A DNA stretch of 64,000 nt. Origin: a virus. The notes beneath the pieces are model-generated. The model ran no database searches. It saw only the letters and a program-made list of their open reading frames with translations, and was not told the DNA's origin. The DNA is taken from IMG/VR virus record IMGVR_UViG_3300021478_000794, positions 1 through 64,000 of that record; one strand, written 5' to 3'. The translations under genes were made by a program, and so were the position numbers. Positions within the stretch are counted from its first letter, which is position 1. Each line of letters opens with the position of its first letter. Positions 3,396 to 60,985 of the stretch are shown here, one piece after another.

Positions 3396-6300
3396 GTGGC
3401 GGCTACTAATACCAACGTCCCCGGTAATCCCCAAGGCTACAACGCGGCCCAGCACGTAATCAACCAACGCGCCGTCCAGCGCGAAGATAATGAGAAGACG
3501 GTAAAAGCGTTAGTGGATATGGGGAAAGCCATGGAAGGGGCCCATACCGGCCTAACCCGCCTTACGAAGGCGGTCCAAGAGACCGATAAGATTTTCGAGC
3601 GAGCGGCCCGCCGAGGCGATCTCTTCGCGGGCCGGGCGATGATCGACTTCTACCGGACGAGCGATAGTCTTAATAAGGCCTTTACGAAGACCTATTCGAC
3701 GCTCGGTTCGGGCTTCTCCTCCCTCCAGGCGCACGGCCTAAAAGCGACCTCGACCCTCGCTTCTCATTCTAAGGAACTCCTCCACTTCTTCGAACTCTCC
3801 GGGAAACAAAAAACCGAGACGGTCCGGCTCGCCGAAGAGGAAGCCCGGATTAACGAGGAAGTAACGCGGCAGATGCGCTTCCAAGGGGGCCTAATCGACG
3901 AGGAGCTTAAAGAAAAGCGCGACCGTCTCTCCCTCCAGAAGACCTACCTCGCCTCGGAAAAAGAGCTTCTAAAGGTCGAGAAGATGGGGGCGATAACCGT
4001 CGCGGCTTTCGCGGCGACCGTCGGCCAGGCCCTCGCCCTTAGTTACGAGTACCAGAAGACCTTTAAATCGATCGCCCTCGATTTTAAAAGCTCGCTCGGC
4101 TTTATCGATAACCTCGTCTCCGTCGCCGCCTCGGCCCGGGGACTCGCCTCGATCGCCGACGCAGCGAAGGCCATGACGGCGTTAAGGAAAGCCGGGACGA
4201 GCTACTACGCAGATAAAGACCTCCAGAAGTCCATTATCCAGCTCTCCTCCGCGACCGATCTTTCCGCCGAATCGGCGACCGCCTTAGCGCAGCAGTTTAA
4301 GATTCTCGGCGGGACGACCGAAGAATTTAAAACCCTCGGGAACGTCTTTACCTTCTTCTCGCAGCAGACGGAGCTTACCGCCGACGAGGTCGCGAACCTC
4401 GTTACCGCCGCGAAACCCCTTATAACCGATTTCCCGAAAGACCTCCAGAGCAAGACGATTACCTCCGTCCTCGCGGTCGGGGACGCCTTTAAGAAGGCGG
4501 GCCTTAACGCCGACGAGCTACTTAAGACGCTCGACGAAATGAAGGATTTTACGAGCGGGGAAGGGATGAAAAGCGCGGCTATGATCGCCCGGTTTAGCGG
4601 GGTCTCGTTCGCGGAGATGACCCGGGGGACCGACGTCGGGCTCCAGGCCGGAGCGGCCCTTACCGCCCGGTACAACTTCATGAAACAGATGATGTCGCGG
4701 GGGATGGGGGCGGCAACGGCGGCTTCGATGGGGTCGAAGATGGGGCTCGGGTCGGCGGCAGAACTTAAGATCGAGGGCCGGTGGACTCCGGCGGATCTCG
4801 CGGCCCGTAAGGAGCAGATCCGTACCGACGAGGAGGAAGCGACCGCGAAGGAGCATCTCCAGGACGCGATTAACCGGCTCCTCTCGAACCCGATCGCCCG
4901 GCTCGTCGCCATGTTCCACGGCCTCGAACGCTTCTTCCTCTCCGTCGGGACGAAAGCGCTCGAAGACGTTACCGGTTTTTTCGATAATTTCGGAAAATTC
5001 CTTAATAACCGGGGCCTCCTCTCGCCGATAACCGACTTCTTTAAAATGATCGGCGATATCGCCGCGAATCCGGTCGTCGGGTCGACCTTAACGACGATCG
5101 CGACGACCCTCCTTTTCGCTCTCCCGATCAATGCAGCGAAGACCTTCGCGGTCTTCGTACGAGGATTTAGCGACGTTATTTTTAAGTTCGCGAAGTTAGG
5201 GACCGCGACCTCCCGGGTTATCCAAGGGCTCGACGAGCAGATCGCCGCTAATAAACGTCTCGCGCTTTCCTCGGAAGAAGCCGCCGCCGCGACTAAGCGG
5301 CAGACCACCGCCAACGAACTCTCCGAACTCGCCGGAGGCGTCGGCGGAGGCCCGGTCGGGGGAGGGGTAAAAGGAGCGGCCTCGGCGGTAAAAGCGGAAG
5401 AGGAAGCGGTCGCGGCGGGGAAAGCGACCGGCTTCTTCTCGAAGCTCGCCGGAACCGTAAAAGGATCGAAGGTCGGACGGGTCGCGACCGGACTCGGAAA
5501 TACCCTAAAGAGTAAGATAACCGGACTCGCCGGAGGAGCGACGGGATTACTAAAATTTGGAGGAGAATGGGGGTTAAAATTCGTCCCGATTCTCGGCGGG
5601 ATTATCGGGACGGTCGCCGGTCTTACGACGGCGGGATCCCGGATCGGCGAGGAAGGCTTTAATATTAAAACCGCTATCCAAGGGGTCTTCGATGTCGTCG
5701 GAGGGTTACTAATGGGGTTCGGATGGGTCGGGGCGGCGATTTCCGCCGTCCTAATGGGGCTAAACTCCTTAATCGACTGGTTATTCGGGAGTAAGAAGAA
5801 GGAGGAAAATAAAGGGACGACGGTTAAACCGACGACCGAATCCCAGGAGGCCGCCGCTTCCGGAACCCTCGGAAAATACCAGTTCGATACCCGAGGCGGG
5901 AAACAAACGATTAGTACCCCCGGCGGGACGAGGCCGCTCGGCGGAAACGCCGGACTCCACGGCGGCCTTTCGACGACCGCCGCCGCCGCGAACGGCGGAA
6001 GAGGCGGCGGAAGCGAAAGCGCTAGTAAAAGCTCCATCTACCAGAAGCTCCTAACCGCTTACTCTAGCTCGGGCCTCGTAAACGTCATCCCGAACGACGG
6101 CGCTAAATTCGGAATTACGACCGGCTCCGCCGAGGAGTGGGCCCGGTTCGGGACCGCCGTCGCGGAGGCGGAATCGGGCTTCGATCCGCGCTCGCAAAAT
6201 CTAAGCGATCCCGGAGGTTCGTTCGGCGTTTTCCAGTACGCCCACGGCCAGGTCCCCGGCGGAAACGCTTTCGATATCGACTCCTCGGTCGCGGCCTTCG

Positions 6301-7247
6301 TCCGCGATTCCGTTGCCTCCCAGAGCGACCTCGAAAGCGGGCTTTTAGGTCAACGGTTTTCGACGATCGGAAGACACCCCGAACGGACGATTTCGAAGAT
6401 CGGCGGAGTAAGCGGGACGAGAAACGTTGCCTCGTCGCGAGAAAGCGGAGGACCCCCGCCGCCGACGTCTTCTTCGGGAGGCGTCGCGACGAGCCGGGCT
6501 ATCGCGGACGTCTCCTCCGATACCTCCACCTATCAAAACCCAAATAAAACCGCTTTCCCGGCTCGCCTCCAAGCGGTCGGAGGCGTCGATCCCGCCGCTT
6601 TTATCGCCCACCATACCGGCGGTCGGGGAACGGTGCAAAGCTTGCAAGATACCTTGCATCAACGGGGTCTCGGGGTCGAATTTGCAATGGACCGGGAAGG
6701 CAACATCTCCCAAATAGGTCAAGCGGGGGCCGCCAATATCCTTTCCGGGTCCAAATTCTTTAAAAGTAGCGATCCAAGATCCGGGCTTAGTAATAAAAAC
6801 ATTATCGGGATGGAGATCATCGCGAAGGACGACGCCGATATAACCGACGCCCAGCGAAAATCGTTCGCCGAATTTATCGCCGCCCGTTACCCGAATACCC
6901 CCGTCCTAGGGCACGGCGAAGTTAACCCCGGGCATAAAGAAGCCGACGAAGGGCAGTCGACCTCGCGGGCGGCGCTCGCCCTCCGCTCTAAACTTAGTAC
7001 CCACGTCTCCACCGTCCAGACTCCTCCCCCCTCGACGAGTATTAGTACCCGCCTCTTCGAACGCCATCTCCGCGACCTTCAAAAGGGTGACTTTCATAAA
7101 CTCCCCGATACCCAGAAAGAGATGTTAACCGAAATGAAAAGTTCGGGCCGAAGTTCCCGCGAATACTTCTCGCACCAGATGCGGAAGGATTTCCTCGGCC
7201 CTTCCCTTCTCCCCGACTCGGCGGAAGAACTTTACCGGGTAGTCTAA
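3396..7247 (+). CDS. Tail tape measure protein with transglycosylase-like and amidase domains
   Basis: 1283 residues, GTG start. Residues 1-500 are long helices typical of a tape measure; 560-790 hold hydrophobic and Gly-rich segments (such as VPILGGIIGTVAGLT) thought to enter the membrane during DNA injection. Around 895-990 lies a lysozyme-like fold with AEAESGFDPRSQ, whose Glu near 925 fits the catalytic acid, and GGSFGVFQ. About 1060-1190 is an Amidase_2 (N-acetylmuramoyl-L-alanine amidase) domain with zinc-ligand candidates HH (about 1070) and GHGEVNPGHK (about 1172-1180). It should set tail length and cut peptidoglycan at entry. The DNA of the amidase part is rich in CA/TG, unlike the rest of the gene. 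Confidence 0.85.
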   Translation: MAATNTNVPGNPQGYNAAQHVINQRAVQREDNEKTVKALVDMGKAMEGAHTGLTRLTKAVQETDKIFERAARRGDLFAGRAMIDFYRTSDSLNKAFTKTYSTLGSGFSSLQAHGLKATSTLASHSKELLHFFELSGKQKTETVRLAEEEARINEEVTRQMRFQGGLIDEELKEKRDRLSLQKTYLASEKELLKVEKMGAITVAAFAATVGQALALSYEYQKTFKSIALDFKSSLGFIDNLVSVAASARGLASIADAAKAMTALRKAGTSYYADKDLQKSIIQLSSATDLSAESATALAQQFKILGGTTEEFKTLGNVFTFFSQQTELTADEVANLVTAAKPLITDFPKDLQSKTITSVLAVGDAFKKAGLNADELLKTLDEMKDFTSGEGMKSAAMIARFSGVSFAEMTRGTDVGLQAGAALTARYNFMKQMMSRGMGAATAASMGSKMGLGSAAELKIEGRWTPADLAARKEQIRTDEEEATAKEHLQDAINRLLSNPIARLVAMFHGLERFFLSVGTKALEDVTGFFDNFGKFLNNRGLLSPITDFFKMIGDIAANPVVGSTLTTIATTLLFALPINAAKTFAVFVRGFSDVIFKFAKLGTATSRVIQGLDEQIAANKRLALSSEEAAAATKRQTTANELSELAGGVGGGPVGGGVKGAASAVKAEEEAVAAGKATGFFSKLAGTVKGSKVGRVATGLGNTLKSKITGLAGGATGLLKFGGEWGLKFVPILGGIIGTVAGLTTAGSRIGEEGFNIKTAIQGVFDVVGGLLMGFGWVGAAISAVLMGLNSLIDWLFGSKKKEENKGTTVKPTTESQEAAASGTLGKYQFDTRGGKQTISTPGGTRPLGGNAGLHGGLSTTAAAANGGRGGGSESASKSSIYQKLLTAYSSSGLVNVIPNDGAKFGITTGSAEEWARFGTAVAEAESGFDPRSQNLSDPGGSFGVFQYAHGQVPGGNAFDIDSSVAAFVRDSVASQSDLESGLLGQRFSTIGRHPERTISKIGGVSGTRNVASSRESGGPPPPTSSSGGVATSRAIADVSSDTSTYQNPNKTAFPARLQAVGGVDPAAFIAHHTGGRGTVQSLQDTLHQRGLGVEFAMDREGNISQIGQAGAANILSGSKFFKSSDPRSGLSNKNIIGMEIIAKDDADITDAQRKSFAEFIAARYPNTPVLGHGEVNPGHKEADEGQSTSRAALALRSKLSTHVSTVQTPPPSTSISTRLFERHLRDLQKGDFHKLPDTQKEMLTEMKSSGRSSREYFSHQMRKDFLGPSLLPDSAEELYRVV

Positions 7248-9206: not shown

Positions 9207-10784
9207 ATGGCCACCTATATCGCTGCCGGCGTATACATCGAAGTCCAAGATAACTCGGCTTACGCCGCCCCGATTTCGCTGACGACCTGCGGGGTCGTCG
9301 GCGCGGCGACGAAGGGGCCGGTCCTCGGGAAATACGAAGGCGATAATAATACCTTCAACCTCCCAACTTTCATTACCACCCAACAGGAGTTCGTCTCGAT
9401 CTACGGAAACCCCTCCCCGGAGTACCAGGCCCCCTACGCCGCCCTCCTCTATTTACAGCAGGGGAGGCAGCTCGTCTTCGGGCGGGTCGTCGGCTCCGGC
9501 GCGGCAACCGCGACCAAGGTTTTCGACTCCGTTTTAACCGTAAGCGCCCTAAACGAGGGGGAATGGGGGAACGCGGTTAACGTCTCGATCGTCGACTCCT
9601 TTATTAACGGGGCGAAGATGCTGGTCGTTTATCAGATTATCGGCAACCAGATGATTACCGAGGAGACCTACGACGGCCTCGTAACCGACCCGACCTCCGA
9701 CCGCTTTTACGACTCCGTTATTAACGGTACCTCCCAGTTCGTTACCGTCGCCTACGATACCCTTAATACGAATCAGCCCTCCAATACGACCGGCGATAAC
9801 CCGTCGGTCGGGGTAATGGAGGCGCTCGCCGACGGAAACGACGGGGCTCCTCCGGGCGACGCCGAGATTATCGGCGAGATCCAGTCCGGGTTCGCGACCG
9901 GGCTCTGGTCGTACGCGGATATCGATACCGTCGATATCTCGATGCTCTCCGCGCCCGGCTATACCTCGCCCGCCGTCGTTACGGCGATTAATACGATCGT
10001 CGGGATCCGGGGCGATTGCCTCGGGGTTATCCACGGCCCCCAAGGGCTCAACGCTCAGGAGATTGTCGACTGGCACAACGCCGCCGGAGCCTTCGAAGCG
10101 GGCGGCTCGACGCCCTCGGTTCTTATTAATAACTCGCAGATGGCCCTGTACTGGCCCTGGGTCCAGATCTACGACGCCTATAACGCCCAGAACGTCTGGG
10201 TCCCGCCGGTCGGGTTCGTTTTACAGGCGATCGCCTACAACGATCAGGTCGGGGAAGCCTGGTTCGCCCCCGCCGGAGTTAACCGGGCCCGGTGCGGGTC
10301 GGCCCTCGCCCTCGAATACCGCCCGACCCTCGGCGACCGGGAATTTATCTACGGCCCCGGGAACGGGAACGCGGTTAACCCGCTCGTCGACCTTCCGCTC
10401 GACGGAATTACCATTTACGGGCAGCGCACAATGCAGCGCTTCCCTTCCGCGCTCGACCGGATTAACGTCCAGCGCCTCATCTTTTACTCCGCGAAGGTCC
10501 TCTCGAACGCGACCCGGGTCCTCGTCTTCGAACAAAACGATCAGGTCCTATGGAACGAGTTTAAATCGATCGTCTCGCCCTACATGGCCGATATAAAGGC
10601 CCGCCGGGGCGTGGAAGATTATAAAATAATCTGCGACGAGACGACCAATACCCCCTACCGCCGGAATAATAACGAGATGTACGGAGTGATCATGCTCATC
10701 CCGACGAAATCGGCGGAGAAAATTATTATCCAATTTTCCGTTAACGCTTCCGGGGCCGACCTCTCCGCTCCGCAACTTGGTTAA
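9207..10784 (+). CDS. Contractile tail sheath protein (gp18-like)
   Basis: 525 residues. The N-terminus (ATYIAAGVYIEVQDNS) and the GVVGAATKGPVLG segment are typical of phage tail sheath proteins, as is the C-terminal domain with IVSPYMADIKARRGVEDYKIICDETTN split by short gaps, which forms the interlocking sheath handshake. It polymerises around the tail tube and contracts at infection. T4 gp18 is longer (659 aa); phage Mu-type sheaths are about this size. The tube gene follows at once, the normal order. A GGTACTTT motif lies upstream. Confidence 0.92.
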   Translation: MATYIAAGVYIEVQDNSAYAAPISLTTCGVVGAATKGPVLGKYEGDNNTFNLPTFITTQQEFVSIYGNPSPEYQAPYAALLYLQQGRQLVFGRVVGSGAATATKVFDSVLTVSALNEGEWGNAVNVSIVDSFINGAKMLVVYQIIGNQMITEETYDGLVTDPTSDRFYDSVINGTSQFVTVAYDTLNTNQPSNTTGDNPSVGVMEALADGNDGAPPGDAEIIGEIQSGFATGLWSYADIDTVDISMLSAPGYTSPAVVTAINTIVGIRGDCLGVIHGPQGLNAQEIVDWHNAAGAFEAGGSTPSVLINNSQMALYWPWVQIYDAYNAQNVWVPPVGFVLQAIAYNDQVGEAWFAPAGVNRARCGSALALEYRPTLGDREFIYGPGNGNAVNPLVDLPLDGITIYGQRTMQRFPSALDRINVQRLIFYSAKVLSNATRVLVFEQNDQVLWNEFKSIVSPYMADIKARRGVEDYKIICDETTNTPYRRNNNEMYGVIMLIPTKSAEKIIIQFSVNASGADLSAPQLG

Positions 10785-10787
10785 ACC

Positions 10788-10795
10788 GGTACTTA
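10788..10795 (+). promoter_or_regulatory. GGTACTTA start-proximal motif (family B)
   Basis: Lies across the end of the sheath gene, five bases before the tube ATG at 10801. Same motif family as upstream of the sheath. It helps to choose 10801 over the TTG at 10777 as tube start. Confidence 0.4.
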
Positions 10796-10800
10796 AAGCT

Positions 10801-11400
10801 ATGCCCATCGAAGGTAACACTATTCTCGCGGCCCAGGGCGGTTTCGAACCCCAGCGGACCAATAACTGGCTCGTACAAATTAACGGGACGACCCTTCCCG
10901 GTTTAAGCGCCTCGGATTTCTATCTCTCGCTTAAGACCTTCCCGTTCCCGGTCGAGTCGAACCCGGTACAGAGGATCCGGTGGTATAACGAGTCGCGGAC
11001 CTACGCCGGGTCGCTCGCCGACTTCGGGGACCTCAATATGCAGGTCCACGATTACCTCGACCGGGCTACCGCCCAGATTCTCTACAACTGGCGCCGGTTA
11101 ATCTGGAACCCGGGGAACCTAACGATCGGGCTCGCCTCGCAGTATAAGATGACCGGGATGCTCTATCTCGGGCCGCCGAACGCGGTAAGCGTCGCCGATA
11201 TTATGGGGCATTCTCGGACTTGGTATCTACAGGGGATCTGGCCGACGAACTTGGATATGGGCGCGTTCGATATGGACGGGATGGGGGAGAACGTCCTAAT
11301 CTCCTGCACTCTCGCGGTCGACCGGGCTTATCCGGGCGACGCCGACGGGACCTCCGATCCTTCGAAAGCCGGTCCCCAAGGGATTCCCGTCGGGCTCTAA
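10801..11400 (+). CDS. Tail tube protein (gp19-like)
   Basis: 199 residues from the ATG at 10801; a TTG 24 bases earlier inside the sheath gene is less likely. RTNNWLVQINGTTLPGL near residue 20 and the C-terminal TWYLQGIWPTNLDMGAFDMD block match T4 gp19-type tube subunits, which stack as hexameric rings inside the sheath. Gene order sheath-tube is conserved in myoviruses. A paralogue lies at 12525-13250. Confidence 0.88.
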   Translation: MPIEGNTILAAQGGFEPQRTNNWLVQINGTTLPGLSASDFYLSLKTFPFPVESNPVQRIRWYNESRTYAGSLADFGDLNMQVHDYLDRATAQILYNWRRLIWNPGNLTIGLASQYKMTGMLYLGPPNAVSVADIMGHSRTWYLQGIWPTNLDMGAFDMDGMGENVLISCTLAVDRAYPGDADGTSDPSKAGPQGIPVGL

Positions 11401-11976: not shown

Positions 11977-12213
11977 CTACGCGTCCCAGCCGCTTACCTC
12001 GTGCATCGTCTCGATGTCGAGGCCGAACTTAAAAAGTTTCGCCGAAGCGTAGAAGGTATTCTTCCCGTCGACCTGGATCATGCAGGTCCCGTTCCGGGAC
12101 CGATCGCTCCATCCGATAAAGGTTACCGGATAGAACTTCCCCTTTTCGAAGACCGAAAGGAGATCGCCTTTCTTTAAGAGGGGGAAATCGGAATCCGTCA
12201 GCGGTACTTGCAC
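11977..12213 (-). CDS. Small protein with C-terminal ETMHEVSGWD tag
   Basis: 78 residues, GTG start. The body looks like a small beta-barrel (KKGDLLSVFEKGKFYPVTF, then IQVDGKNTFYASAKLF), similar in style to SH3-like domains. The last 12 residues are IETMHEVSGWDA, the peptide shared by five unrelated proteins of this window. No family recognised for the body. It lies between the secreted protein gene and a divergent gene. Confidence 0.65.
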   Translation of the reverse strand: MQVPLTDSDFPLLKKGDLLSVFEKGKFYPVTFIGWSDRSRNGTCMIQVDGKNTFYASAKLFKFGLDIETMHEVSGWDA

Positions 12214-12524: not shown

Positions 12525-13250
12525 ATGCCGATCGCCGGATTAGTCGACCTTATCGCTAGCGCCAACGGCAAGTTTATCGAGCCGGTTAAACGGAATAACG
12601 CCCGGCTCCGGATAACGACGGGTAACCTCGTTAAAGTCCTCCAATCCCAATTTCCCGACGATACCGGCTATCTTACGGCGATCGGGAAAGCGCTCGCGGG
12701 CGACGTTTACCCGCTCGACGTCTCCTTTACTCCTCCTTCGATCTCGACCGAGACCCGGAAGACGATCGGGATAAATAATATCCCGGTAAATTACGGCGGT
12801 TATACGACCTTCGGGCCCTGCTCCTGCGTCTTCAATAATTTTATCGCCGCCGATACCTTTAAGTTCTTTTACCGCTGGGGGCTACTACCGGGCGGGATCC
12901 GCTTAAACTCGACCGGGACCGCCCTCGACCCGGTCGCCCCTTCCGCCGCTCTCCCGCTCCCCGACCTCTCGGGAGCGCTTAATAACGGCTATAAGGTAAA
13001 CGGGATTATCTCCCAGTACTACACCTACAATACCGCCGCCGGAGACGAGACCGAGTACGGGACCTGGATCCTGCAGGGGATGTGGCCGTCGTCGGTTACG
13101 ACGACCGGGTTCGATCTCGGGAACGATTACGGATCGATGGTACTGACGAACGTCGAATTTACCGTCGACCTCGCCCTCCCGGTCGCGAGCGTCCTCCCGG
13201 GGAACGCTACGACTCAAAGCGTCCCCGTCGCTCAGGCTTCCCGTACGTAA
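12525..13250 (+). CDS. Second tail-tube-like protein
   Basis: 241 residues. The C-terminal block TWILQGMWPSSVTTTGFDLG parallels TWYLQGIWPTNLDMGAFDMD of the tube protein at 10801-11400, and the overall order of strands appears the same, so I read it as a divergent tube paralogue. It carries extra sequence in the middle (PSAALPLPDLSGALNNGYK). It could form a specialised ring (tube initiator, terminator or hub) rather than the bulk tube. The following gene is a gp26-like hub gene. Confidence 0.65.
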   Translation: MPIAGLVDLIASANGKFIEPVKRNNARLRITTGNLVKVLQSQFPDDTGYLTAIGKALAGDVYPLDVSFTPPSISTETRKTIGINNIPVNYGGYTTFGPCSCVFNNFIAADTFKFFYRWGLLPGGIRLNSTGTALDPVAPSAALPLPDLSGALNNGYKVNGIISQYYTYNTAAGDETEYGTWILQGMWPSSVTTTGFDLGNDYGSMVLTNVEFTVDLALPVASVLPGNATTQSVPVAQASRT

Positions 13251-13276: not shown

Positions 13277-14293
13277 ATGTCCCTAAAGCTTAAAAAACCG
13301 CCCGGCCCGACCAACCGGACGATTACCCTCCCGACCTCCGGTTATCCCTACCGCGCTTTCCCCGAACTACGCGGCGGGATAATTAACGTCCGGGCCTTTA
13401 CCTACGAAATCGAGTCGTTAATGTTCGGGACGGCGGGCGAGAATACCGCGAAGCAGTACGCGAAGCTTTGCCTCCTACTCTCGAAACTAGTCGATTGGCC
13501 GAAAGGGTTTAACCCCGGCGACCTTCTCGAAGGAGACTCGGCCTTTATCGTAATGACGGCGCGAGCCCTAACCTACCCGGAGCAATATCATACGTTCGAG
13601 ACGACCTGTACGGCGTGCGGCGAGAAGGAGACCCATAACCTTAAGATCCCCGACCATTTACCGCAGAACCGCTACCCGGAAGATTTCCGGGGCTTCGCGA
13701 CCTTTACGACCTTTAACGAGAACGTTATCGATATGCGCTTCCTCTCCCTCGGCGAGGATACGGAATGCCTAAGGATGTCGCGGAACCGGGCCGCGAAAGG
13801 GATTATTACCGACGACGCCCAGGATAACGACTACCAGCTCAACCGCCTAAGTCTCGCTCTCCTAACCGCGAACGGGGAAAAACCGGCGACCTTAGAGGAG
13901 GCCCGGACCTTCTTTAAGGATATGCCGACCGACGAACGGGAGGAAATTATCCGGGCCCTCCGGCTAAACGCCCCGGGATTAAACTCGCGGCTAACGATCC
14001 GGTGCCCTAAATGTAACGAAACCTACGAAGATTTCATCCCCATAACGATGGACTTTTTTCGTTCTCGGTCCAGAACAATTCGAACAGAGTTGCCGGGAGG
14101 TGTTCTACTTAGTGTACCTGGGCCGGATCAGCAACGCCTTTCAACTAACGGTACCGGAGCGGCGGATGATGTTAGCGATCCTAGACGAAACGAAGGAGGA
14201 GGAAACGAAAGCCTCGGCGGAAGCGGCGGCGGCCTCGCGACGCCGGTAACCCCTCCCGCGCCGAAACCCCCTACCGTCGTCCAGACTTCATGA
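13277..14293 (+). CDS. Baseplate hub assembly protein, gp26-like (zero-frame product)
   Basis: 338 residues. Layout matches the T4_baseplate (gp26-like) family: IESLMFGTAGENTAKQYAKL near residue 47, a first zinc pair CTACGE (Cys111, Cys114), a second pair CPKCNE (Cys243, Cys246), and an IPITMDFF end to the conserved part at about residue 259. After that the zero frame turns into low-complexity Gly/Pro sequence with codons unusual here (AGA, ACA, TTG). A T6 run at 14054-14059 sits at the switch, where another frame continues in protein-like sequence. The stop overlaps the next ATG (ATGA). Confidence 0.75.
   Translation: MSLKLKKPPGPTNRTITLPTSGYPYRAFPELRGGIINVRAFTYEIESLMFGTAGENTAKQYAKLCLLLSKLVDWPKGFNPGDLLEGDSAFIVMTARALTYPEQYHTFETTCTACGEKETHNLKIPDHLPQNRYPEDFRGFATFTTFNENVIDMRFLSLGEDTECLRMSRNRAAKGIITDDAQDNDYQLNRLSLALLTANGEKPATLEEARTFFKDMPTDEREEIIRALRLNAPGLNSRLTIRCPKCNETYEDFIPITMDFFRSRSRTIRTELPGGVLLSVPGPDQQRLSTNGTGAADDVSDPRRNEGGGNESLGGSGGGLATPVTPPAPKPPTVVQTS
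14054..14249 (+). CDS. Predicted frameshift extension of the gp26-like gene
   Basis: From the T6 run the +1 (equivalently -2) frame stays open to a TAA at 14247-14249. It encodes FVLGPEQFEQSCREVFYLVY, LGRISNAFQLTVPERRMMLA and ILDETKEEE plus an Ala-rich end, which resembles the small helical hub/tail chaperone domains (gp51-like) that follow gp26-type proteins. The frame is closed upstream by a TAA at 14043-14045 and holds no ATG until the pair near 14166, so a separate start is unlikely. Codons here fit phage usage better than the zero frame. Predicted by reading only. Confidence 0.6.
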
Positions 14294-14844
14294 GCGGTAG
14301 CGGGAACGGGAACGGGAACGGTCGGAACGGGAACTCGCCCTTCCCGCTCGACGGCCTCGGGCAGCGCCCCTTCTTCCTCGCCCCGGAGACCTACGACCTC
14401 CTCGTTTACCCGGCGGAATGGTACGGGGATATCGATCTCGCGGGGAACCTCTTAAGCGAACTTTCCGATATCTTCTACGTCCGTCCGTACGGGCGGTCGT
14501 CGGTCTATAATCTATGGACCCTTTTCGTACGAGCGCCCTACGCCTACTGGTTCGAAGACGACGTCGCCCTCGGGTACCGGAATATGTTAACCGACGCTAA
14601 CCCGGACGAACTCGCGAACGCCTTTTATACCGAAGCGCTTTCTCTCCTCCAAAGCGCAAAATTAAAGGAACTCCGGACCGACCTCCATACTTATCGGCAG
14701 GTTCTCTCCGGCGACTACCTCGCGATCCCGCTTATCCCCGCCGCCCTAACGATTACGACGATCGATACCCTCTCGCTCCAGGAGTCGCTCGACTCGGCGA
14801 CGATTACCGCCCGCTTAGAGGAATTTAAGAATTTCCTAGAGTAG
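14290..14844 (+). CDS. Hypothetical tail/baseplate protein
   Basis: 184 residues, coupled to the hub gene by ATGA. Starts with a Gly/Asn/Arg-rich flexible stretch (residues 1-16), then a folded part with PETYDLLVYPAEWYGDIDLAG and a helical C-terminus. No family recognised; position in the tail cluster suggests a structural or assembly role. Confidence 0.5.
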   Translation: MSGSGNGNGNGRNGNSPFPLDGLGQRPFFLAPETYDLLVYPAEWYGDIDLAGNLLSELSDIFYVRPYGRSSVYNLWTLFVRAPYAYWFEDDVALGYRNMLTDANPDELANAFYTEALSLLQSAKLKELRTDLHTYRQVLSGDYLAIPLIPAALTITTIDTLSLQESLDSATITARLEEFKNFLE

Positions 14845-39769: not shown

Positions 39770-40198
39770 TTAGCTATCCCATCCCGAGATTTCGTGCATC
39801 TCCGCGATCTCGATTTCGTACCGGACCGCTCCGGCGAGCGAGTCGCCTTCGGAAACGGTAAAAAGCCGGTATCCGGCCCCGGTCGCATACGTATTTATTA
39901 CCCGGACGACTTCCTCTAACGAGGGAGCGCTCTTCTCCCAAAAGCGCTCGCTAAAAATCCGGTTCCAATTTAGTAAGAAATTAAGCGCCTCCGACCCGTT
40001 AATAACGGCCTTTAAACCGCTCGACGAATTCCAGAGGATCCGTTTTTCTAAAACTTTAAATTCGCCGTTCGCGATCTCTCCCGAAACGATCGCGAGATCG
40101 GTATTACTTAAGACGATATTTAACGCCGGGTTGAGCGGTCGCCGGTAGACGACCGATTCGGTTTTTAGAAGCTTTAAAACCGTCTCGGAATTAGGCAC
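39770..40198 (-). CDS. Protein with C-terminal AEMHEISGWD tag
   Basis: 142 residues from the GTG at 40198; the longer frame runs into the RuvC gene. Mixed alpha/beta body with LLNWNRIFSERFWEKSAPSL and AVRYEIEIAEMHEISGWD, ending in Ser. The tag here has lost the usual ET before MHE (AEMHE). The body shares no obvious similarity with the other tagged proteins. Function unknown. Confidence 0.6.
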   Translation of the reverse strand: MPNSETVLKLLKTESVVYRRPLNPALNIVLSNTDLAIVSGEIANGEFKVLEKRILWNSSSGLKAVINGSEALNFLLNWNRIFSERFWEKSAPSLEEVVRVINTYATGAGYRLFTVSEGDSLAGAVRYEIEIAEMHEISGWDS

Positions 40199-48632: not shown

Positions 48633-49160
48633 TTACGATTCGGAGAGGCGACGGTTTAATTTCCGAACGAGCGCCGCTTCGTCCCATCCGCTCATCGTAT
48701 GCATCGTTTCGACTTCCGGGACCTCCACCCAAAACTCCCCCAGTTGAGCGTTTTCCGGATCGTCCTTATTTTCCTCGTAATCGTTCATAACCGCCCAGGT
48801 CATATCCTCGATGAACCAGGCGGCAATTAACGAGCCGATATCGGCGAGCTGCTTAATACTATCCGCGCCGGGAAAACTCGCGACGAGATGGAGGACGTTC
48901 GGCTCCTGGCGCGGGATCTTTTTCGTCGAAAAACTCCCGGCGTTCGGGTCGGGAAGCGAGATCGTCTCCCGGGCGAACTCGTCCGCCGCCGCCCAAAGCT
49001 CCTTCCCGAAGCGCTGGTAGAGGCGGTAGAGTTCCTTATTATTCTTAATTCCGGGAATCTTGCACGCCAGGACGTTCCCGTTATTTTTCTTAATAAATTC
49101 GAACGTTTTTAAATTGAACCGGTACGCCCGGGCGATTTTTAGAGCGAGATCGACGTCCAT
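48633..49160 (-). CDS. Protein with ETMHTMSGWD tag near the C-terminus
   Basis: 175 residues. Helical body (RLYQRFGKELWAAADEFA and LVASFPGADSIKQLADIGSL). VETMHTMSGWDEA begins near residue 147 and is followed by a basic helix (LVRKLNRRLSES), so the tag is not strictly terminal here. It sits between the fibre gene and a structural-type gene, all on the minus strand. Confidence 0.62.
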   Translation of the reverse strand: MDVDLALKIARAYRFNLKTFEFIKKNNGNVLACKIPGIKNNKELYRLYQRFGKELWAAADEFARETISLPDPNAGSFSTKKIPRQEPNVLHLVASFPGADSIKQLADIGSLIAAWFIEDMTWAVMNDYEENKDDPENAQLGEFWVEVPEVETMHTMSGWDEAALVRKLNRRLSES

Positions 49161-59635: not shown

Positions 59636-60985
59636 ATGGAAGAAGATTTCTTTCGATCCCTAGAGGCGGAGGACCTTCGTCTCCTAAACGGTTACGACGA
59701 AGCCCGGCGGGGTACGCCCCGGGCGACCCTTTCCGACGACATAAACGAACTCGTTAAAGATTACGACTCCGCTAAGGCGATTAAGGGCCAGCTAGACGCC
59801 TTAAATTATTTCGGCTCGGTTATCGCCCGGTACGGTTCGATCGAAGCTTGGAAGAATTTCGATTTCGAAAAACGCGATAAAAGCGTCTTCGGACAGGATT
59901 GGTTCGAACAGGGGTTTAAGGAGATCAGCCTCTATTTCGTTATCGAATCGTCCCGGGGGAAGATTAAAAGCTTAGAGTTTTCGGATAAAATTCTCCGGAT
60001 CCGTATCATGGTTTACGGGAAATCGGGCGTAAGTAAGGCGGAAAATCTTCCCTCCTATTATTGGCACGAGAAGAAGAGCTATTTTCCCGCGAAAGCGATC
60101 CCGGTAAGTTGGCCGGGGCCGAGCTTACTCGCCGCTTCGCTCGACCCCGAAGTCCGGAAGCGAGCCTCGGAACTCGTCGGCGAAGCGTACGGGAAATTTT
60201 TAAGCGGCCTCCTTCCGCCCGCTCCGGATATCGAAACGATGCATACGATAAGCGGCTGGGACGAGGCGAGGACCGCGCTCCCCCGGACGACCGTCGATAC
60301 GACCCCGATCCTTAAAGACCCGGAAGAAACGAAAAAAGTTGAAGACCGGTTAAAGGCCGCGAATTACTTCGATAGCGCTTTTACCCGTTCCTCCGAAATC
60401 ACCGTTCAGAAATATTTTAAGCCCGGCGCGACGGAAAAAGATTTCCGGTCCGCTCGCCTTTATATGCGGATCGGACTCCGGCGCGGACGTTCCGGTTATC
60501 GTCCGGCTCTCCATATCGAAACCGACATTAGCGGAACCTACGCTCCCGGAGAGGATGTAACCTATCGACCGGTCCTTAAAAAGGATTACCCGGCGTCGGA
60601 AATCCCGGCGGTTTGGCCGGGGTACGCCTTAACTAGCCCTTCTCTCGTTCCCGAAGTTAGGAAGAAGGTTAGCGTTCTCTTCGCCGAGGCTTATAAGGTT
60701 TTCCTAAAAGCGCTCTCTCCGCCGCCTCCGGATATCGAAACTATGCATACTATTAGTAACTGGGACGAAGCTATAATCGGGAAATTCGAAGCGCCGGACG
60801 CCGATTCGAAGCCGTTTTCGATGTGGTCGAATACCGATAAATATGTCCCGGTCGGGAGCGAGGAAGACCGGGAGCTTCTTTACGGGATCGAAGAATCGGA
60901 AGAATCGGAAGCGACGGTCGGAGCTTTTCTCGCGGTCGGGAAGTTAATGGAAAGTATAAAAAGTAAAACCCCGCCCGAAATGTAG
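59636..60985 (+). CDS. Tandem-repeat protein carrying two ETMHTIS tags
   Basis: 449 residues from the ATG at 59636. Two copies of a domain of about 150 residues, each starting near LDALNYF or LKAANYF and ending in AIPVSWPGP...VRKRAS or IPAVWPGY...VRKKVS followed by PDIETMHTISGWDEA (about residue 200) and PDIETMHTISNWDEA (about residue 365). A degenerate LNGYDEARR opens the protein, so the unit may be tag-linker-domain repeated three times. The two tag copies use different codons. Function unknown. It lies next to capsid and scaffold genes. Confidence 0.65.
   Translation: MEEDFFRSLEAEDLRLLNGYDEARRGTPRATLSDDINELVKDYDSAKAIKGQLDALNYFGSVIARYGSIEAWKNFDFEKRDKSVFGQDWFEQGFKEISLYFVIESSRGKIKSLEFSDKILRIRIMVYGKSGVSKAENLPSYYWHEKKSYFPAKAIPVSWPGPSLLAASLDPEVRKRASELVGEAYGKFLSGLLPPAPDIETMHTISGWDEARTALPRTTVDTTPILKDPEETKKVEDRLKAANYFDSAFTRSSEITVQKYFKPGATEKDFRSARLYMRIGLRRGRSGYRPALHIETDISGTYAPGEDVTYRPVLKKDYPASEIPAVWPGYALTSPSLVPEVRKKVSVLFAEAYKVFLKALSPPPPDIETMHTISNWDEAIIGKFEAPDADSKPFSMWSNTDKYVPVGSEEDRELLYGIEESEESEATVGAFLAVGKLMESIKSKTPPEM
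60976..60984 (+). promoter_or_regulatory. CGAAATGTA motif (family A) with ribosome site
   Basis: CGAAATGTAGGAGGTAATG: the motif overlaps the stop of the repeat protein and runs into an AGGAGG ribosome site for the gene at 60992. The case shows that the GG part of the motif can double as a ribosome site. Confidence 0.5.

Follow-up and report, generated by a model that had tools for sequence, protein, structure and literature searches.

Probable programmed +1 frameshifting at UUU_CGN in a gp26-like tail assembly chaperone gene of a T4-related phage and its relatives

The window analysed here, a stretch of 64,000 nucleotides, belongs to the record of a T4-related phage (89,390 bp) and contains a gp26-like gene whose conserved protein is followed, in another frame, by a second conserved domain. 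As judged from the sequence, a programmed +1 frameshift at UUU_CGU in a tail assembly chaperone gene is very probably the best explanation for this arrangement. According to the proposed mechanism, most ribosomes would read the zero frame and produce a short form (G), whereas a minority would stall when CGU, a rare Arg codon, occupies the A site. The P-site tRNA-Phe would then re-pair from UUU to UUC, one base forward, and the shifted ribosomes would stay in the +1 frame to produce a long form (GT) of 323 amino acids with a helix-loop-helix T domain. On the model of lambda G/GT, the tape measure protein would be coated with the short form, and the long form would serve to recruit tail tube subunits. 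We infer the occurrence of slippage, its efficiency and the chaperone function.

Reading frames and the T domain

The ORF from 13277 to 14293 (plus strand, as are the neighbouring genes described below) is gp26-like, as it matches the Pfam family T4_baseplate (PF12322) with an E-value of 4e-9 and 36.9 bits, compared to a curated cut-off of 24.5, and phrog_150 'baseplate hub' with an E-value of 8e-14. The bases GAC TTT TTT CGT are found in its frame at 14051-14062. The conserved zero-frame protein stops at the Phe-Phe, and a low-complexity tail comes after it. The G part, i.e. the gp26-like chaperone domain of 261 amino acids up to the shift site, extends from 13277 to 14059, and the putative shift site UUU_CGU (P-site Phe codon and rare A-site Arg codon) occupies positions 14057-14062, with another UUU before it at 14054-14056. 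Past the site, the zero frame contains 77 further codons (14060-14293) and ends with a TGA at 14291-14293, which overlaps the ATG at 14290 of the next gene in an ATGA arrangement. The 184-amino-acid product of this next gene (14290-14844) had no family match in the Pfam and phrog profile comparisons. In the +1 frame, a stop at 14043-14045 precedes an open stretch that begins at 14046 and continues for 62 codons beyond the site (14061-14246) to a TAA at 14247-14249; this continuation reads VLGPEQFEQSCREVFYLVYLGRISNAFQLTVPERRMMLAILDE... up to the TAA at 14247. The -1 frame of the window is closed after 17 codons, and that of most relatives after 2-6; the continuation in the -1 frame expected for a canonical -1 heptamer (X_XXY_YYZ) was thus not found. 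An earlier note on this DNA had proposed a shift of +1 or -2 on the T6 run of a gp26-like hub gene, and the features on which it relied, namely the GAC TTT TTT CGT sequence, the long shifted frame to 14247 and a zero frame open to 14293 and coupled to the next ATG, were all found to be present.

By comparison with the relatives described below, the +1 frame from 14061 to 14246 encodes the C-terminal, gp51-like T domain of a tail assembly chaperone (14061-14249 with its TAA), as indicated by profile, alignment and AlphaFold2 analyses. A profile HMM made from the +1 extensions of the relatives, with the window excluded, was searched against all 1541 stop-to-stop segments of the six frames. The sole significant match was the segment 14046-14246 (E 4e-6), the next best segment having an E-value of 0.024. 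The AlphaFold2 model of the window's +1 extension, based on an alignment with 21 relatives, is a helix-loop-helix with a mean pLDDT of 92.7. A structure search of the T domain against the PDB gave no match. By itself, the T domain was too short a query for tblastn, which found nothing among phages.

The T domain might alternatively be a separate small gene translated from its own start or by re-initiation, similarly to the gp51 ORFs of cyanophages. Cyanophage and KVP40 gp51 do carry separate-ORF annotation, and a GGGAGG is present shortly 5' of a GTG at 14112 in the window. However, all the starts of the window are located inside the domain, i.e. the GTGs at 14100 (the first in this frame) and 14112 and the ATG at 14166. 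The earlier note had argued against a separate gene from the stop at 14043 and the missing ATG, and both points were upheld, since no ATG occurs before 14166. Moreover, the extension of one relative, L039, is devoid of any ATG, GTG or TTG, those of LIS04 and L036 have none before codons 41 and 35, respectively, and the frame is open across the shift site in the aligned relatives. A separate gene is therefore extremely unlikely.

Relatives and conservation of the +1 site

Searches by tblastn first gave Streptococcus phage GXN1 and Listeria phage LIS04, and then Bacillus phage SP-15, Flavobacterium phage immuto and two huge uncultured phages. With a three-phage alignment as query, the scan of IMG/VR yielded 33 loci, an earlier multi-sequence alignment having been too diverged for scanning. 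This comparison of sequences established the site and its codon constraint, the conservation of the +1 domain and the distribution over clades. The same layout is found in about 20 diverse phage loci, including the isolates SP-15, LIS04 and GXN1, nearly all of them at UUU_CGN. In essentially all relatives the zero frame ends 3-15 codons past the Phe-Phe, and the +1 frame, in which a shared domain can be recognised, goes on for about 54-97 codons. This frame is unbroken in 21 of 22 relatives; the extension of L038 (3217 onward) is broken after 47 codons and then resumed in another frame, which is probably due to an assembly indel. The earlier note had looked to relatives for a plain fused reading frame or for a shifted frame without conservation, and neither was seen in the 20-odd relatives. 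In the records of SP-15, LIS04, GXN1 and immuto the T domain is unannotated, fragmentary or mis-annotated. As to close relatives of the window, the gp26 search gave one near-identical contig only and genome_contigs gave none; a tail-sheath search gave four loci, of which that contig was one, and a usable gp26 was adjacent in no case. L061 and L062, which match PF12322, showed no gp26 with an extension on three-frame reading.

A frame change at a homopolymer is located at a typical error site, and might instead reflect an indel introduced by sequencing or assembly, a gene in decay, or slippage during transcription of the T run. However, the bases at the site are shared by the second contig, which is 99.93% identical over 8.8 kb, and the out-of-frame layout is repeated in 20-odd diverse loci and three isolates. 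Polymerase slippage is also unlikely where the run is UUU_C only, as is the case for seven loci. The likelihood of such an origin is close to nil.

The putative +1 site comprises TTTCG, the most conserved stretch of the region. Over 23 aligned loci, UUU is present in all 23, with C as the next base in 21 and CGN in 19. Among the 22 aligned Phe-Phe relatives, the last Phe codon is always TTT (22/22), whereas seven of them have TTC for the first of the two; the base after TTT is C in 20 and the following codon is CGN in 18, of which 14 have CGT. Wherever the A-site codon encodes Arg it is CGN (18/18 loci), which gives a naive product of 5e-15 without correction for kinship. Most of these relatives, whose genomes are AT-rich, use mainly AGA for Arg, and the choice of CGN at every Arg site is thus not a matter of codon usage. 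The Val codon formed in the +1 frame may be a partial source of the preference for CGT, and CGA, CGC and CGG are also found at the site, where the +1 codon is then one for Asp, Ala or Gly. CGT represents 7% of the Arg codons of the window, and apart from this site TTT_CGT is absent from the 13,941 main-gene codons.

Some loci depart from UUU_CGN. The sequence is UUU_AGU in LIS04, and UUU_UGG, UUU_CUA or UUU_CUU in the immuto-like group. A subclade composed of L045, L046, L047, L051, L052 and L058 has lost both Phe-Phe and UUU_CGN, with TTT or TTC AAT CCC_AGT instead, and probably shifts +1 at CCC_AGU (CCC_A). No obvious Shine-Dalgarno stimulator was seen upstream of the site, and downstream RNA structure was not significant in the window (z -0.99) or in most of the 10 relatives tested, L044 alone having a z of -2.3.

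A Mu-like -2 shift on the run of six T would reach the same frame with one extra amino acid, and the TTTTTT of the window does permit -2 re-pairing of tRNA-Phe on UUU. At the seven loci with UUC UUU (GXN1, L033, L036, L041, L048, L054 and L057), however, the tRNA-Phe would land on UCU, and a -2 shift is therefore rejected there and, by homology, also for the window. The C found directly after UUU in 21 of the 23 loci is required for re-pairing from UUU to UUC but not for -2, and its conservation thus favours +1. A -2 shift is accordingly very unlikely. Of the '+1 or -2' frameshift originally suggested at the T6 run, the frameshift itself is strongly supported and the +1 direction retained, whereas the -2 direction is discarded on these two grounds.

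The gp26/gp51 chaperone family and its routes to a long product

The earlier description of the gene as gp26-like agrees with the PF12322 and phrog_150 matches, but 'hub' is a legacy name, since the alignment with T4 gp51 and the work of Vladimirov, Gautam and Davidson (2022, PMID 34826709), in its outline, indicate a T4-like tail assembly chaperone. According to that outline, gp26/gp51 constitute the T4-type chaperone, and some T4-like phages possess a short gene together with a fused one that is separate from it. The zero-frame protein of the window corresponds to gp26 (PF12322), and the T domain is a homologue of the C-terminal end of gp51. Unlike the window, T4-type phages (ime09) have two separate genes, gp26 and a pre-fused gp51, without frameshift; gp51, on the opposite strand, aligns to a conceptual gp26+T fusion, T domain included (E 6e-17). 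The two T4-type genes of Vladimirov and colleagues are presumably gp26 and gp51, which agrees with this alignment. The gp51-type homology was also seen with a profile of the -1 extensions, which matched T4 gp51 (E 6e-11) and most +1 relatives (E 6e-11 to 0.03). The window's extension was not significant against the -1 profile alone (E 1.3), in contrast to its match with the +1 relatives (E 4e-6).

The AlphaFold2 model of the G part has a pLDDT of 86 and the SP-15 'baseplate hub subunit' as top structural match, and the BFVD structure matches of the gp26-like protein are T4-like hub subunits. The HK97 chaperone (2ob9) and YqbN (3klu) were within the top five PDB structure matches, but with E-values of about 2, and a sequence search of gp26 against the PDB gave no match. 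The G part contains two zinc-ribbon-like CxxC pairs (C111/C114 and C243/C246), whose four cysteines are invariant in 20 aligned relatives.

In the window, the chaperone gene comes after the tail sheath gene (9207-10784; phrog_23, E 8e-66; PF17482) and two tail-tube-like genes, one coding for a tail tube protein (10777-11400; phrog_45, E 3e-10; phrog_4542, E 1e-7) and the other for a tail-tube-like protein located directly 5' of the gp26-like ORF (12525-13250; phrog_45 tail tube, E 8e-4). A tape measure-like ORF (3396-7247) is located upstream of the sheath and the chaperone genes and not directly downstream of the latter. In SP-15, LIS04 and immuto the chaperone gene is flanked by those for the tail tube and the tape measure, which is the classic chaperone slot and the position known from lambda G/GT. 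The location of the tape measure-like gene 5' of the sheath gene indicates that the tail module of the window is rearranged compared to SP-15.

Low-level G-T frameshifting is general among long-tailed phages, 'except T4' (PMC5009743), in agreement with the earlier note's statement that tail assembly genes of many phages use recoding. The arrangement proposed here resembles lambda G/GT (Xu, Hendrix and Duda 2004; PMC5009743) in that short and long forms would come from one gene by a low-level shift, with the T domain in the alternative frame. In lambda and most other phages, however, the shift is -1 on a heptamer, compared to +1 on UUU_CGN here, and no sequence match was seen between the window's chaperone and lambda G/T. 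Poly-T -1 sites have been described for the chaperones of T4-like phages and Vandenendeviridae (PMC12846349). In Kyanoviridae and non-Tevenvirinae Straboviridae, the gp26-gp51 shift likewise occurs at the terminal Phe-Phe and leads into a homologous T domain, but these phages and the Vandenendeviridae use -1 on poly-T. The same domain was found in the -1 frame, at U_UUU_UUC or U_UUU_UUU, in cyanophages, Melnitz, KVP40, Ah1, S13, VmeM-32, Mendera, Cr30, C48C1, Atu_ph07, XacN1 and LR756511.

The shift-direction labels cluster on the gp26 tree, in which the -1 Kyanoviridae and Straboviridae group together and the +1 sites form another large group. The latter includes the window, which is on a long branch (support 93/87) with a nearest identity of 25%. 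The huge phage LR756511 (L006), which has a -1 site (GGT TTT TTC; 3601-3720), is nested beside the +1 locus L036 (support 98/94), indicating that the direction of the shift changed more than once. It is likely that T4-related contractile phages of a wide group, most of them uncultured, make their tail chaperone by a +1 shift at UUU_CGN and that the direction was switched within the family, being mostly +1, with -1 in the cyanophage and KVP40 types and in one nested huge phage, and with a duplication in T4, so that the long form would matter rather than its route. One family would thus obtain the same long product in three ways, by -1, by +1 and by gene duplication.

The same P-site and A-site sequence, UUU_CGU, has been proven by experiment as a +1 site in influenza A PA-X (PMC3498833), and UUU_CGN has been reported as a +1 site for plant amalgaviruses (PMC5052127). 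The logic of re-pairing from UUU to UUC and the slow Arg codon are also common to these systems and the site described here, where they are predicted from the sequence. As the former are eukaryotic RNA viruses with 80S ribosomes and unrelated proteins, the likeness is convergent and not homologous. A +1 shift was considered 'very likely' in the chaperone of the archaeal myovirus HSTV-2 (PMC5009743), whose gene is likewise of the G-T type but which infects haloarchaea. No description of UUU_CGN in phages was found in the open-access literature, where absence constitutes weak evidence. What appears to be new is the use of +1 at UUU_CGN, the fact that it is conserved, and a shift direction that changed inside one family. 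Frameshifting in tail chaperone genes is among the most widespread recoding events in biology, whereas conserved intragenic +1 sites are rare and hard to spot. The loci assembled here amount to an extensive natural alignment for a single +1 signal in bacteria, UUU_CGN, including phages of the cultured hosts Bacillus, Listeria and Streptococcus.

The zero-frame tail and dinucleotide composition

In addition to the +1 frameshift, and not as an alternative to it, both frames past the site might be functional, the 77-codon zero-frame tail being of use in the short product; this appears rather unlikely. The first 42 codons of the +1 extension contain 12 CA/TG compared to 7.0 expected (z 5.2), a value equalled by 0.7% of 603 control segments. 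Inspection of both frames showed that several avoidable CA/TG are fixed by the zero frame and that one could be removed only by creating a stop. However, a zero frame opposite a +1 gene would remain open over 62 codons by chance in 9-12% of cases in this genome, relatives have only 3-15 codons at this place, and the tail is of low complexity. Its openness is thus mostly compatible with chance. The dual coding of about 190 bases claimed by the earlier note is therefore weakly suggested, in that the CA/TG usage hints at an added constraint, whereas the missing tail in relatives and the possible openness by chance argue against it.

The window as a whole (1-64000) is strongly depleted in CA/TG, with an observed/expected ratio of 0.30, ranging from 0.19 to 0.37 across 4-kb blocks and reaching 0.31 in non-ORF stretches. 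CG is raised to 1.54. Related phage contigs have values near 1.0. The depletion looks like a DNA-level pressure rather than codon usage, and is possibly more unusual than the frameshift finding itself. The avoidance of TTT_CGN throughout the genome, considered as support for the shift site, was set aside, as it is explained by the general CA/TG bias together with a codon-junction bias.

A motif, MH(T/E)(I/V/M)S(G/N)WD, is present in several otherwise different ORFs, mostly near the C-terminus, and the reversed control pattern gave no match. Its copies in the window are located at 11984-12006, 39777-39799 and 48682-48704 on the minus strand and at 60239-60261 and 60743-60765 on the plus strand, and another copy is found at 84723-84745 (minus strand) of the 89-kb record. 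This motif could be a packaging or targeting tag.
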